From: Rhynochetos jubatus
Taxonomy: Eukaryota; Chordata; Aves; Eurypygiformes; Rhynochetidae
DNA: 64,000 bases
Assembly (NCBI GenBank): GCA_027574665.1
Contig: CM050650.1
Coordinates: forward strand, 100,041,086 to 100,105,085
Direction: 5' to 3'
A program made the position numbers and the translations under genes. Shown here one piece after another: positions 5,788 through 64,000 of the stretch. The first letter of the stretch is position 1; the number at the start of each line of letters is the position of its first letter. The notes beneath the pieces were generated by a model. That model did no database searches. It saw nothing but the letters and a program-made list of their open reading frames with translations, and was not told the DNA's origin.

Positions 5788-6785
5788 TCACAGCTTCACA
5801 GAGTGTTAGAGTTGGAAGGGTCCTCTAGAGATCATCTGGTCCAACCACCCTGCCAGAGCAGGATCCCCTAGAGCAGATCACACAGGAACAAGTCCAGGCG
5901 GCTTTGGAAAGTCTCCAGAGAAGGAGACTCCCCCACCTCTGGGCAGCCTGTCCCAGCGCTCTGGCACCCTCACAGGGAAGAAGGGTTTCCTCACATTCAG
6001 GTTGAACCTTCTGTTTAACCGTTTATGTCCATTGCCCCTCGTCCTGTCACTGGACACCACTGAGAAGAGCCTGGCCCCATCCCCCTGACACCCACCCTTT
6101 AGATATTGATAAGCACTGATAAGATCTCCCTTCAGCCTCCTCTTCTCCAAGCTAAACAGACCCAGCTCTCTCAGCCTTTCCTCATACAGAAGGTGCCCCA
6201 GCCCCTTCATCATCTCAGTGGCCCTGCGCTGGACCCTCTCCAGTAGCTCCTTGTCCTTCTGGAACTGAGGAGCCCAGAACTGGACACAGCACTCCAGGGG
6301 AGGCCTCACCAGCGCAGAGCAGAGGGGGAGGATAACTTCCCTCGACCTGCTGGCCACGCTCTTCTTAATGCATCCCAGGATGCCATTGGCCTTCTTGGCC
6401 GTGAGGGCACACTGTTGGCTCATGGTCAGCCTGTTGTCCACTAGGACTCCAAGGGCCTTTTGCCCAGAGCTGCCCTCCAACAGAACAGCCCCCAACCTGT
6501 ACTGGAACATGGGGTTGTTCTTCCCCAGATGCAGCACTTTACACTTGCCCTTACTGAATTGCATTCGATGTCTCCCTGCCCAGCTCTCCAGCCTGACCAG
6601 GTCACGCTGGACGGCAGCACGGCCTTCGGGAGTGGCAGCCACTCCTCCCAGTTCGGTACCATCAGCAAACTTGCTGAGAGGACATTCTAGTCCTTCATCC
6701 AGGTCACTGATGAACATATTGACTAGGGCTGGACCCAGCACTGACCCCTGGGGGATGCCACTAGCCACTATCCACAGGCCTCCAT
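5788..6785 (-). mobile_element. CR1 LINE, 5'-truncated copy with a long open reverse-transcriptase frame
   Basis: About 1 kb of CR1 in minus orientation, with its 3' end near 5788 (TTCACAGAGTGTTAGAGTTGG) and truncated at about 6785. A 296-codon frame is open from 6768 to 5878 and covers the end of the reverse transcriptase and the ORF2 C-terminus: [10 protein letters not shown], then [30 protein letters not shown] and [16 protein letters not shown]. The catalytic F-A-D-D motif reads F-A-D-G, so the copy would be inactive as an enzyme even if expressed. No upstream endonuclease region is present. Confidence 0.95.
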
Positions 6786-8692
6786 CTTCTCTTGAAATCT
6801 AGTCAGAAATACAAAGGAAACAAACCTTCCTAGATTCCTAGCAGAGAAGATTCTGCATTAAGGTCCTACTGCCATCTGCTTATCTGAACATGCAAAGCAC
6901 GTCCTTCATAAGAAGCCAGGCTGTAAGCATTTTTCAGATAAGACAGTGCTGAGGAATAAGAGGAACTTCACCAGAGTAAACGCAGAGTGAGTGCAGATGA
7001 GATACTGACCGGTTCCCAAGTCAGCAGGATCCTCCCCAAAAGCCTATGACTGATGAACCCTGCCTCTATGTTAAAAGCAATAACATACACAGTTTTCTAC
7101 AGCACAAAGATTTTGATTAAAAAAAGAAACAAAACCAGAAATATAAATGTTTTTCCACAAAAGAACTTGCACATAGGCTACTTTTGACACTTGGAATGTA
7201 TCCAGCCAGTTGACTCCCTCTGTACACCATGCTCTAAGGGAAGTAGCTTGGCCTAATCTGCCTCCTCCTCCTCTTGCAGCTGAAGAACTTGGAAGGGAGG
7301 CATTATTTTCCAAAAGGCATACAACATAAATAACGGTCATTTCCTCTTTTTGGCCGAAAACACTAAAAGTCAGATACTACTGTAACAGATCCAGGCCACT
7401 AGCAATGTGTGAATCAACCCTTTCAACAGTGGTTCCTCTGACAGGAAGCCTCATGCTTCCTGCAACGAGGGGTAAGTCCGTAAGAAACAGCTACCAAGTA
7501 GAGCTGGACAAAAAAAAAAAAAAAAATTGCTGGAAGTGTTTTCAACTGGAAAATAAAACTGGTCTGAAAGTTTCACAAGATGATGTGGGAGAGAGACCAG
7601 AGGCCTCAAAATAAGTTTGTTTAAGCAACTGAATTGAAGAGAAAACCTTTGTTTGTCCATCTCATAGACAAAATGTGCAGCTCAACACTTCTTAAATGGT
7701 AGTCCACATAGGAAACCAGAGGAAAAAAGCATGGTCTAGTTGCTTATTTTTCAGTCAACTAAGAAATCTCATTATTTTTAAAAACCTGAATAGTTAATAA
7801 AAACTGAAGGTGGTCTTTGATTAGAGACTTTCAAATAATAGATGAACTTTCATTTTTTTGCAATTAGCTGGGTTATGAATGGTATTCCTGGAAAAGAATA
7901 AAAAAAGGCTAGAAGTGGGACAATCAAACAAAACACTTCTCTGGCATTTGCTGTAGGAGAAACAGTTGTTGCTTCCTGGTACTTTAGGCTTAATACAAGT
8001 AGGATGCTTTTTCACCTCAATCATTCAGATACCTTGATCTTATTGCATATTCTTAGTAAAGCCATAATTTCAGGTGTGCGGGCAGATGACCATGATTGGG
8101 GTAGGCCTTCCGAGAGCTGGATTTTTTAGAGTTCACAAAAGTGGATCAGATTTCAAAAAGTCACCCCGCAGGCTTGGTCATTTCCTGCTGTGGCATGTTT
8201 GGTAGGCTTAATCCCATCTGACAGCAGCCACCGAAAATACAGGCATGCAGTCTTAGCCTGTCACGCAAGTTCCTTGCGTCAAAAGATAAAACTGGTCACC
8301 TCCAGGTAACAGCTCAACCTCTCTCTCCTAAAAGAGGCACCCTGGAGATGCTTCTCCTTCCATTAGCTAGAGAGGGAGTCCAGGCAATAGAATGAACACT
8401 TAAGATGGAAGAAACAGACATCACCCTTAGACCCCCAGACCAGAGTGCTTCAAAAGCCCTGGTCTGCTATACTGGTGCTTCTCCAGGAGCTGAGCAACTC
8501 CAGAAGCCACAAGCTGCACTAACAACCAAGTAAACGCATGGTGGGGTCGCTGATCCTTGGTACGTGTTCTTCTCTCATGCAGCCACTCAGGTTTTGTGCC
8601 AGTCTTTACCAACTCAACTAGCAATAACAACAGGCAACACAAATGTACTTAGCCAAGAATGATTTGCTGCTCACTGGGGCCGCCTTACTTAC
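6786..8692. other. Intergenic or intron, nothing recognised
   Basis: No exon with a credible pair of splice sites and a recognisable product was found. It contains the A17 run at 7510. It would be intronic if the transcript with the exon at 8693-8788 continues downstream. Confidence 0.5.
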
Positions 8693-10565: not shown

Positions 10566-10643
10566 CTCTGCCACTCTGTCCCCTGCTTGTACCCCAGCCA
10601 AGTCTGCTGGACCGTCTTTCGGCAGCCGTGCAATCACCATCCC
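10566..10643 (-). CDS. Scribble-type PDZ exon, core of the domain
   Basis: A 78-base exon, phase 0 at both ends. The acceptor is CCTTTTGTGTCACCAG and the donor is GCAGAG|GTAAAT. It encodes GMVIARLPKDGPADLAGVQA then GDRVAE. Joined to the exon at 11321-11410 it reads ...KDNDE+GMVIARL..., the counterpart of SCRIB ...GDDE+GIFISRV.... The GPAxxAGVxxGD signature is complete. The bases after the donor would read V-N-G-L-F-V, the expected PDZ continuation, so the exon may run on to a weaker donor (GA|GTGTGT at 10540/10539). The family is PDZ without doubt. The assignment is nearest to SCRIB PDZ1, and PDZK1-type PDZ4 (GPADLAG) is the alternative if this exon is viewed alone. Confidence 0.85.
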
Positions 10644-11320
10644 CTGGTGACACAAAAGGCAGGTTTCAGACCTGACAGAGTTTCTTTCATTGTTCTTTGA
10701 TGTAAAAAGCAAACGGGAAGTAATTAATTTTCAAGACTTGTTGTTCTGCTGTCACTATTAAGATAAAAACTAAATGTCTTAGCACATTAGCAAGAAAAGA
10801 AAAAAAGCCTCCACGGCTGACACATGCACCAATGAACAAAAGTCATTAATTGTTTACACTGTGCCATGGGGGACAGACTGGGAAAAGACGATTTATTTAA
10901 ATGATAATTAAGTGAGAACATGTCAGAAATGCTTCTCTCAAATCAAGTTAGCTCCCGGGAATGAGCAAATGGGATGGGAGAGGCACGTGGATTGCCAAGG
11001 GAGTGACCCCAAATTGAGGCAGAAAGTGGAAACTAGCCAACGGTGTTTCAGCCATCAGGTTGTGTTTGGAAAAACATTTGTTTCATGGGGTTTTTTCTCC
11101 AAAATCATCCCTCCAGGAGCTTCCCAGCAAGATCTACTGCCGGCTTCTACTCTGGGAAATAAGTTACCCATGTTTACCCTTGTTAGCTTTATTATGAAGA
11201 CCGTGACGTTACACTGAGGACAACCTCAGAAAGAAAACAACAAAACACAATAGCTTCAAAGAACCGCTCATCAGTTTCTTTCTAATGATTACTAGATAAA
11301 TTTTGAGTAATGAAATGCAC

Positions 11321-11410
11321 CTCATCATTGTCTTTACATGGAGATGAGCCCTTTCCACCAGCAATGCTAATACCAAGACTCCCCATTTGACTGCACACAG
11401 TAATGGTTAT
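11321..11410 (-). CDS. Scribble-type PDZ exon, first half of the domain
   Basis: A 90-base exon, phase 0 at both ends. The acceptor is AATTCTTTTCCAG and the donor is GAG|GTGCAT. It encodes ITITVCSQMG followed by SLGISIAGGKGSSPCKDNDE. This is strand B1, the carboxylate-binding loop (LGIS, the place of GLGF) and the long B2-B3 loop of a PDZ domain. Human SCRIB PDZ1, as I recall it, reads LTLTILRQTG then GLGISIAGGKGSTPYKGDDE: 19 of 30 positions are identical, including the whole LGISIAGGKGS core. It lies 13.5 kb downstream of the LRRC1 stop on the same strand. It could be part of a long LRRC1 transcript, a separate gene or a relic. The open frame, splice sites and fit with the next exon argue against random origin. 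Confidence 0.85.
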
Positions 11411-24883: not shown

Positions 24884-25042
<159 letters not shown>

Positions 25043-26910
25043 CTAAAAATAAACAGCGCAATAAGTGGGTATGCCTTCATCTCTTTGAAAAGCAACATAC
25101 ACTTTCAAGGCTTTAGCATTCACATACCAAATATTAGGTATAGATTTATTTTTTTTTCTTTTTTTTCCCCCTTTTCAAACTGTGATGCTCTATGTTGACT
25201 GTTATTTTCATAGCTGCTTGTTTATGAAGACAGTGAAAGAGGTTTTAAGAACAGTGGAGGAGCAAATTTTTTCCTCTCTTGACCTGTTAATCTGAAAGCC
25301 ACTCAAGTGAAGTACAATCACAACTGATGAAGTGAAGATTCTTTCATAAATGCAGTTGGGATTTTTTTTTTCCCCAAAAAGACACATCCAAGTGATTTAA
25401 GATCACATTTCAAACAAAAACCATTCAGCTGGTTTTGCAAGAATGCCACAAGACCTCTTTAGAGTGTCAAATACATGTTTGTGTGGAGCTCTACATGCCT
25501 TCCAGGTCCTCCACACAGTTTGGTTCTCTTGTCGATCGAGAGCAAGTATCTTGAAAGGAAGAAGAGGGAGCATTTCTCTCCCATCTTAGAGACAAGCACA
25601 TCTAACATCATTGTGCTGAAACCTTTACAAGGATAGCAAAATTTACCAGCTTCCCAGATAGCATCCAGATTAGAGACCAACAGAACACCAAGAATAGTTA
25701 TATTTACCAGTACCATACATATATACATGCAATTACTTTTCCATGGCATATATGTAAACTGTGCAGATTACAGTGGAACTGATAAATGGGTGCATTGGTC
25801 AAGACTGCTTTGATAATCTGCCCTTCCTCCTCCTCCTCTACTACAATCAAACTTCTTTTTCCCCTAAAAAGGTTCTTGCCTCAAGTCAAGCTGTATTGCC
25901 ATGACTGAAAGCAATTAACACCTGAGCCCCCGTTATTATATGGACATTCTCAGGCTGGCACAGTCATTAAGAAGCATCATTCAAAGCTCCCTTATCAGTC
26001 GGTCTACGAACCACGCTTGTCAGAGACATTTAGTTTCCGCTGCTTTGGATTAAACATCCACCTTATTGAAAACTTAAATGTTCAATTTCCCTATTAAGTA
26101 AGAATTTTTATAGTCACTTTTTAAAGACCATGTTTCTAGTGTGTTACAATCCAGACAGTGCCCTGAAGTATCTGAGCTCTAATGAGAACAACCAGCAAGT
26201 TTTTAGAGCATCAGAGAAGCATGCTGAAAAATCTGGCTGAAGCAGTCTTAATCTTTACAAAGAGTTTTAATTGTTAATGAAAGTTAATAAAGCTAAAGCT
26301 CATGTTGCATTTTGATCTTCAGGACATGCAGAGCGCAACTTACTGGAGAGGTCTTATAAGTACAGTGACAGATGTTCCCACATCCTTTGTTTAAGTGGGA
26401 AACTAATGATGAGCAACATTCCTGCTGTTTATGGACACTACAGTTGTTTCAATGCAAATAGTGGAGGGAAGAAAAAAAAAATTAAAGGCAGAGAGAAAGA
26501 AGAGATTGGAAGCAGAAATTAGAGAGACAAACAATGGCAAACTTAATGGAGACACATGCCAGAGTGCTGGAATCCTAAATTGGATCCTATATACTTTCAG
26601 GCAGTAAAGCTTCACAGATGCAGAGAAAGATCCTATCTTGTTTCTGGAAGGAAAGCATCCTGAGCAGAGACAGGAAAGCAAAGCAAAACAAAGCCTGTCC
26701 TGCATCAGAACATAAAAGTTATATTCAAAGCAGAAAAAAAAAAAAAGCAAGCATGTTAAGTCAACATGAAAAGTTTCAGCAGTCAAGATGAGCAGTTTCT
26801 GCTACAAACGTACACAAAAAGCATGCAGTCACAGCTGAAATATGTACAGCAAGAGAGCTCAGATACTGTTAACGCTTTTGCATTAGAGTCACAGTGTCTG
26901 CAGGTATTCA

Positions 26911-27087
<177 letters not shown>

Positions 27088-28557: not shown

Positions 28558-28767
<210 letters not shown>

Positions 28768-29657: not shown

Positions 29658-29774
<117 letters not shown>

Positions 29775-38745: not shown

Positions 38746-38922
<177 letters not shown>

Positions 38923-39897: not shown

Positions 39898-40089
<192 letters not shown>

Positions 40090-42453: not shown

Positions 42454-42753
<300 letters not shown>

Positions 42754-44482: not shown

Positions 44483-44557
44483 CTGAGGTATTTCAGCTAA
44501 TTGGTTTCCATCCAACCAGAGGTCTTTAAGATTGAAAAGTGCACCAATTGTTTCGGG
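44483..44557 (-). CDS. LRRC1: LRRC1 exon (human 190-214), LRR
   Basis: A 75-base phase-0/phase-0 exon, with acceptor TTTATGTTATAG and donor CAG|GTAAAG. It encodes 25 residues beginning PETIGALFNLKDLWLDGNQL and ending AEIPQ, one LRR unit. Because it is symmetric it could be skipped without a frameshift. No evidence here shows that it is. Confidence 0.96.
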
Positions 44558-45320: not shown

Positions 45321-45384
45321 CAAGTGATAAAGTTCATTGTTTCCTAAATCAAGTTCTTCTAGTCGCTGCAGCTGGGCAAGTGAT
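45321..45384 (-). CDS. LRRC1: LRRC1 exon (human ~168-189), LRR
   Basis: A 64-base exon between CTTATCTCACAG and TTG|GTAAGA. The first base completes Glu, then [20 protein letters not shown] and a final Leu follow. The LxxLxLxxN core of one LRR is intact. Human has [20 protein letters not shown] at the same place, so the only changes are conservative ones outside the scaffold positions. Confidence 0.96.
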
Positions 45385-47089: not shown

Positions 47090-47146
47090 TCAGGTAAATA
47101 TGTCAGCAAATTTTCTCTAAGTTCCAGTGAAGCCAGGTTATAAAGA
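47090..47146 (-). CDS. LRRC1: LRRC1 exon (human ~149-168), LRR
   Basis: A 57-base exon, with acceptor TTTTTTTTCAG and donor CCTGA|GTAAGT. One base completes Asn, then LYNLASLELRENLLTYLP follows, and two bases start a Glu codon completed by the next exon. The residues equal the human ones except for the final D-to-E change. The exon is shorter than one LRR, and its phases (2 at both ends) fit both neighbours. Confidence 0.95.

Positions 47147-62180: not shown

Positions 62181-64000
<1,820 letters not shown>

Follow-up and report, generated by a model that had tools for sequence, protein, structure and literature searches.

The window analysed here, a stretch of 64,000 nucleotides from the bird Rhynochetos jubatus (C3:100041086-100105085 of a 1.33-Gb genome), carries LRRC1, the gene for the leucine-rich repeat (LRR) protein LANO, and behind it two exons that encode part of a Scribble-type PDZ domain. 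These exons lie between LRRC1 and MLIP, and all three share one strand in the order LRRC1, PDZ, MLIP. It is fairly likely that they are pieces of one former Scribble paralogue, with the PDZ exons as the surviving part of its PDZ1 domain. A shared history of LRRC1 and the PDZ exons is very likely; that MLIP belongs to the same history is likely, judging from one motif-bearing exon, its border and its place. The ancestor would have been a full-length Scribble paralogue consisting of LRR, PDZ and tail regions. Its 5′ part would persist as LRRC1, which has a stop codon of its own and ends in TTSV, and its 3′ tail as MLIP, on that strand 71 kb beyond the PDZ exons and with a new start, while the PDZ middle would have eroded in this bird to two PDZ1 exons, A and B. 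In one passage of a published article (PMC12731447), LANO is described as the sole LAP member without a PDZ domain, whereas this genome has Scribble PDZ1 exons 13.5 kb behind LRRC1.

Two Scribble PDZ1 Exons behind LRRC1

A sequence-only reading of the window had noticed two intact, phase-matched exons on the LRRC1 strand, about 13.5 kb past its stop codon, and had likened them to PDZ1 of human SCRIB. Both exons are present. Exon A (11410-11321, minus strand; 90 nt, 30 codons) is bounded as ttttccag/ATA...GAG/gtgcat and exon B (10643-10566, minus strand; 78 nt, 26 codons) as tcaccag/GGG...GAG/gtaaat, the slash marking the exon border. Each is phase 0/0 with AG and GT sites, and the GT-AG intron between them (10644..11320, minus strand) measures 677 nt. 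The frame is intact, all four splice dinucleotides are present, and the joined exons encode 56 residues, ITITVCSQMGSLGISIAGGKGSSPCKDNDEGMVIARLPKDGPADLAGVQAGDRVAE; exon A begins 13,477 bases past the point where LRRC1 coding sequence ends. Scored with a frequency table, the splice sites fall inside the range of those of the LRRC1 introns, the exon A donor (4.86) standing at the low end of the 10 LRRC1 donors (4.83-11.85).

In both a PDB search and a tree, the best match of the joined peptide is SCRIB PDZ1, ahead of PDZ2-4, ERBIN and DLG. The PDB query comprised 59 residues, including the VNG after exon B, and among the best 60 of 130 matched sequences human SCRIB PDZ1 came first (E 2e-17, 65 bits), with fly Scrib PDZ1 (56 bits), SCRIB PDZ2 (40) and ERBIN (26) below it. 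Recomputation reproduces the earlier figure of 34/59 identical residues with human SCRIB PDZ1 when VNG is counted; over the 56 coding residues the figure is 31/56. The Pfam PDZ model (PF00595) matches the joined peptide at 37.4 bits, with a cut-off of 23.2. In a ten-row PDZ tree, the window copy and human SCRIB PDZ1 form a pair that excludes the fly sequence, with support of 93/94 that sits just under the level starred by the program itself. In a search of the whole genome, exons A and B recover the window at E 2e-12 and 3e-11, and the next-ranked place is the genome's own SCRIB PDZ1 exon on C1 (E 5e-4). The proposed link to Scribble, rather than to a non-LAP PDZ family, is thus borne out.

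Among the PDB matches listed are 8boj, 8buw and 8bv7, in which the PDZ chain was deposited as Leucine-rich repeat-containing protein 1. This chain is presumably a placozoan Scribble that was named LRRC1, so that a database entry labelled LRRC1 may in fact be a Scribble with a PDZ domain. In prokaryote genomes, at least 10 loci were confirmed, all bacterial by title, and 9/10 match only from residue 26 onward. None of 42 pattern-matching stretches in viral contigs was confirmed, and Rfam returned nothing at gathering score.

The genome's own SCRIB gene lies on the minus strand of C1 at about 104193-181500, with pieces of PDZ1 to PDZ4 each present. In its PDZ1, exon A (90 nt, phase 0/0) ends DE/gtaaga and exon B (78 nt, phase 0/0) ends LLE/gtgagg, with the next exon beginning VNGVSL. 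The window exons are of the same PDZ1 sequence type and equal these exons in length, phase and both borders, among them the DE/G border that the sequence-only reading gave for SCRIB and that is present in this gene. Because VNG opens the next SCRIB exon, the VNG after window exon B is most simply the start of an intron. The PDB search, the whole-genome search and this exon anatomy together rule out a chance likeness to PDZ.

A stray partial copy of SCRIB, placed beside LRRC1 by segmental duplication, would also carry two adjacent exons and their intron, as is seen here. However, own and human SCRIB PDZ1 have 55/56 residues in common, whereas the window copy shares 31/56 with either, which rules out a recent copy. 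Moreover, such a copy must have landed beside a LAP sister gene, on the right strand and in the right order, and we consider this origin very improbable. The LRR part of LRRC1 in the window (191/299 identical to SCRIB LRR) shows a divergence comparable to that of the PDZ1 exons. The old paralogy and intact structure claimed by the sequence-only reading hold by the PDB search, the tree, the genome search and the comparison with own SCRIB exons.

A Probable Scribble-Tail Motif in an MLIP Exon

MLIP, the muscular LMNA-interacting protein (Pfam PF15274), is encoded by a muscle gene. Its coding exons extend from C3 99980678 to 99934756 on the LRRC1 strand, the first of them (C3 99980678), with a phase-0 junction, lying 71 kb beyond PDZ exon B. 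A passage in one article gives the gene order LRRC1, MLIP, TINAG for turkey (PMC8470100), and the wording of another calls MLIP unique to amniotes (PMC11240681). MLIP exon 1 was sought and not found; a weak candidate for it at 12306-12220 was rejected on inspection.

These downstream coding exons on the same strand are those of the known gene, but one of them looks Scribble-derived. This small exon (C3 99964906-99964835, phase 0/0; QYKIKTSYKAFAAIPTNTLLMEQK) carries a motif, Y[KR]x[FL]AA[ILV]P, that the SCRIB tail likewise repeats in small phase-0 exons. Three copies occur in the tail of the genome's own SCRIB, each in its own small phase-0/0 exon on the minus strand: repeat 1 in the exon C1 136254-136171 (LDYRTLAALPSS), repeat 2 near C1 117334 (QAYKTFAAVPLA) and repeat 3 near C1 104243 (FDYREFAAIPSS). 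To our knowledge, the third copy is without counterpart in human SCRIB. The MLIP exon, like repeats 2 and 3, ends in phase 0 exactly 9 codons past the motif proline, and repeat 1 ends after 10.

Searches in the two directions find the same partners. When 204 kb were scanned in six frames (10,747 segments) with a profile built from the SCRIB repeats of this bird and of human, the MLIP exon ranked first (E 0.003, the next segment at 0.92), and a profile made from the three bird repeats only gives it E 0.017 (next 0.89). When the MLIP exon was searched against the minus-strand frames of C1 100001-140000, the segments of repeats 2 and 3 took first and second rank (E 0.029 and 0.33) and repeat 1 came fourth (E 4.1). 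At the DNA level, the motif pattern occurs at 10 places in 1.33 Gb (one for the backward control), namely repeats 2 and 3, the MLIP exon and seven others. Five of these others have N, Q or H in place of the K/R; the strict-motif places at C25 8857603 and C3 3568521 have no exon-like context by eye and were taken as chance.

Several results weigh against the inclusion of MLIP. All loci compared come from one genome, and repeat 3 was ascribed to SCRIB from position, strand and motif only. Human MLIP matches the human SCRIB tail by BLASTP at E 0.003-0.005, a match that 4/2000 shuffles equalled in composition-adjusted BLAST; the ungapped raw score is reached by 49/1000 shuffles, and the gapped raw score by 804/3000 shuffles of MLIP and 635/3000 of the SCRIB tail, or by 766 and 636 of 3000 when shuffling is window-wise. 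Both sequences are compositionally biased, so that raw gapped scores do not discriminate. Single repeats find the MLIP exon weakly (human repeat 2 at E 0.09, own repeat 3 at E 2), and own repeat 2 finds it at E 0.38, second after a chance segment. The Pfam MLIP model is silent on the human SCRIB tail, the MLIP exon and SCRIB repeat 1, each searched against the genome, recover only themselves, and among the tblastn matches listed there is no second convincing match between MLIP and SCRIB tail exons.

Alternatively, LRRC1 and the PDZ exons alone could be old neighbours, with MLIP unrelated and its motif present by chance. The single short motif, the mixed shuffle results and the silence of Pfam speak for such an arrangement. 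Nevertheless, position, strand, exon phase and the exact 3′ border all agree, the partner ranks first in both search directions, and the motif is rare genome-wide, and we therefore regard an unrelated MLIP as unlikely. What is new here, as read from the sequence, is the apparent Scribble-tail motif in a small phase-0 MLIP exon whose end matches those of two motif exons at the SCRIB locus. A link between LRRC1, PDZ exons and MLIP is not stated in the titles and abstract openings listed by searches of open-licence papers.

The Missing Remainder of the PDZ Block

SCRIB has PDZ1 to PDZ4, whereas the PDZ block at the window locus amounts to about two thirds of PDZ1. SCRIB pieces of human and bird origin, along with PDZ profiles, were used to look for the remainder of PDZ1 and for PDZ2-4 in the 64-kb window and in the 70,951 bases from exon B to the first MLIP coding exon found. 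Neither a third PDZ1 exon nor PDZ2-4 was found in the window or in the 71 kb to MLIP, although such a search could overlook an exon that is split or strongly diverged. No match exceeded chance level, and the best one in the 71-kb interval (8.5 bits, E 0.69) was not exon-like when read. As a control of power in the 64-kb window, 8/8 left-out PDZ end pieces, each planted as one open segment, were recovered at E <=1.5e-4. The SCRIB linker that precedes PDZ1 was also sought and not found.

The third PDZ1 exon carries helix B and the last strand of the PDZ fold. With that exon not found in the window and the 71 kb searched, the complete fold was not recovered, and exons A and B should hence not form a normal ligand-binding PDZ domain. 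This weakens the case for the long LRRC1 form, with LRRs and a PDZ domain, that the sequence-only reading had offered among its options: the PDZ1 exons are indeed in phase for such a form, but the remaining PDZ1 exon and PDZ2-4 are not found in the 71 kb.

Age and Present Status of the PDZ Exons

For the present status of exons A and B, we lean towards a late relic of the ancestral paralogue, one that went on with coding-type evolution until well after the bird-mammal split. Neutral decay was modelled at two bird rates, 1.3 and 1.9e-9 per site per year, and the probability that the frame and splice dinucleotides remain intact is 0.16/0.07 at 60 million years (My), 0.10/0.03 at 80 My, 0.05/0.01 at 100 My and 0.002/0.0003 at 200 My. 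It is thus unlikely that the exons were lost earlier than about 100-150 My ago, and loss within about 60-80 My is compatible with these figures. Because the neutral probability falls so steeply with age, long past selection is required and present selection is not. The earlier suggestion that the PDZ is still under selection stands for the past; for the present it does not follow, given a probability of 0.07-0.16 at 60 My. CpG content was uninformative as a clue to age.

At the 25 positions where the window copy departs from own SCRIB, the changes are conservative (mean BLOSUM62 +0.24, compared with +0.25 for the 20 differences between own SCRIB and fly). Neutral paths to the same divergence, which use SCRIB as an assumed stand-in for the ancestor, give a mean of -0.73 and reach so high a value in fractions of 0.0017 and 0.001 of two runs; from an AT-rich synonym of SCRIB the mean is -0.57 and the fraction 0.007. 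Such paths stay intact at the observed divergence with probabilities of 0.001 and 0.001, or 0.009 at half the indel rate. The conservative changes indicate that most change accumulated in a protein. Together with intactness, they argue against a long-dead relic.

It is possible, though we do not think it probable, that the exons share this origin and are still used, in which case a bird transcript would join LRRC1, from 26929 or 24923, to exons A and B. Such a transcript might end after exon B, run into an unrecognised third exon or continue into MLIP; the product would be a long form of Scribble type or an MLIP extended at its 5′ end. The intact frame and four splice dinucleotides would be explained, as would conservative changes and intactness that are improbable under neutrality. 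Moreover, the junctions at the LRRC1 penultimate exon (26929), PDZ exon A, PDZ exon B and the first MLIP exon found are all phase 0, which makes a joined in-frame transcript possible. However, no third PDZ1 exon is recognisable in the 71 kb despite the planted-piece control, and the window copy has a long end branch in the ten-row PDZ tree (0.87, compared with 0 for human SCRIB PDZ1). Full function is also hard to reconcile with the alteration of 13/36 sites common to human and fly, and the window copy (34/59 identical to human) is more diverged than fly (39/59).

One form of continued use would be a locus that in birds is still partly one transcription unit, with LRR exons from LRRC1, both PDZ1 exons and the MLIP exons joined in phase 0 to encode a second Scribble-like protein. 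This is distinctly unlikely; if it were so, the protein would end in the lamin-binding MLIP tail, and mammals would keep only the two ends, LRRC1 and MLIP, an orphan gene linked to muscle disease. Former exons can also become enhancers, and exons A and B might have been retained as a regulatory element rather than as protein. Their changes are conservative at the protein level, though, and we hold that explanation to be highly unlikely. None of the three options in the sequence-only reading took account of MLIP, the apparent tail of the same ancestral gene.

If the common ancestry is true, it would explain why LANO alone among LAP proteins is without a PDZ domain, and it would give an origin for MLIP, in the literature a gene new to amniotes and with no known relatives. 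Scribble-tail functions would then be worth seeking in MLIP. The predictions are checkable in the genomes of birds, turtles, crocodiles, frogs and fishes.

LRRC1 and Other Features of the Window

LRRC1 is represented in the window by 11 recognised exons, from 62271 down to 24887 on the minus strand, which form one continuous open frame. The first LRR exon recognised inside the window lies at 62182..62271 and is followed by exons at 47090..47146, 45321..45384, 44483..44557, 42582..42726, 39940..40058, 38800..38883, 29659..29774 and 28590..28762. The penultimate exon (26929..27065) ends in phase 0, and an in-frame junction from it to 11410 is possible. The last coding exon (24887..25042) ends in TTSV and the stop codon. 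The gene has the same LRR part and TTSV end as LRRC1/LANO, and 349/405 aligned residues are identical to human LRRC1.

Within the last coding exon there is an internal phase-0 GT at 24923 (E/gtcaat), a weak site with a score of 3.7 that could join exon A in frame. Just downstream of the penultimate exon, a 46-base tandem duplication occupies 26583-26670, with two copies that are 77% alike.

Between exon B and MLIP, an open frame of 306 amino acids (5878-6798, minus strand) matches the Pfam model RVT_1 at 30.5 bits, with a cut-off of 29.6, and we take this reverse-transcriptase frame to be CR1-like. Further frames judged by eye to be CR1-like lie near 50-53 kb and 60 kb of the window.
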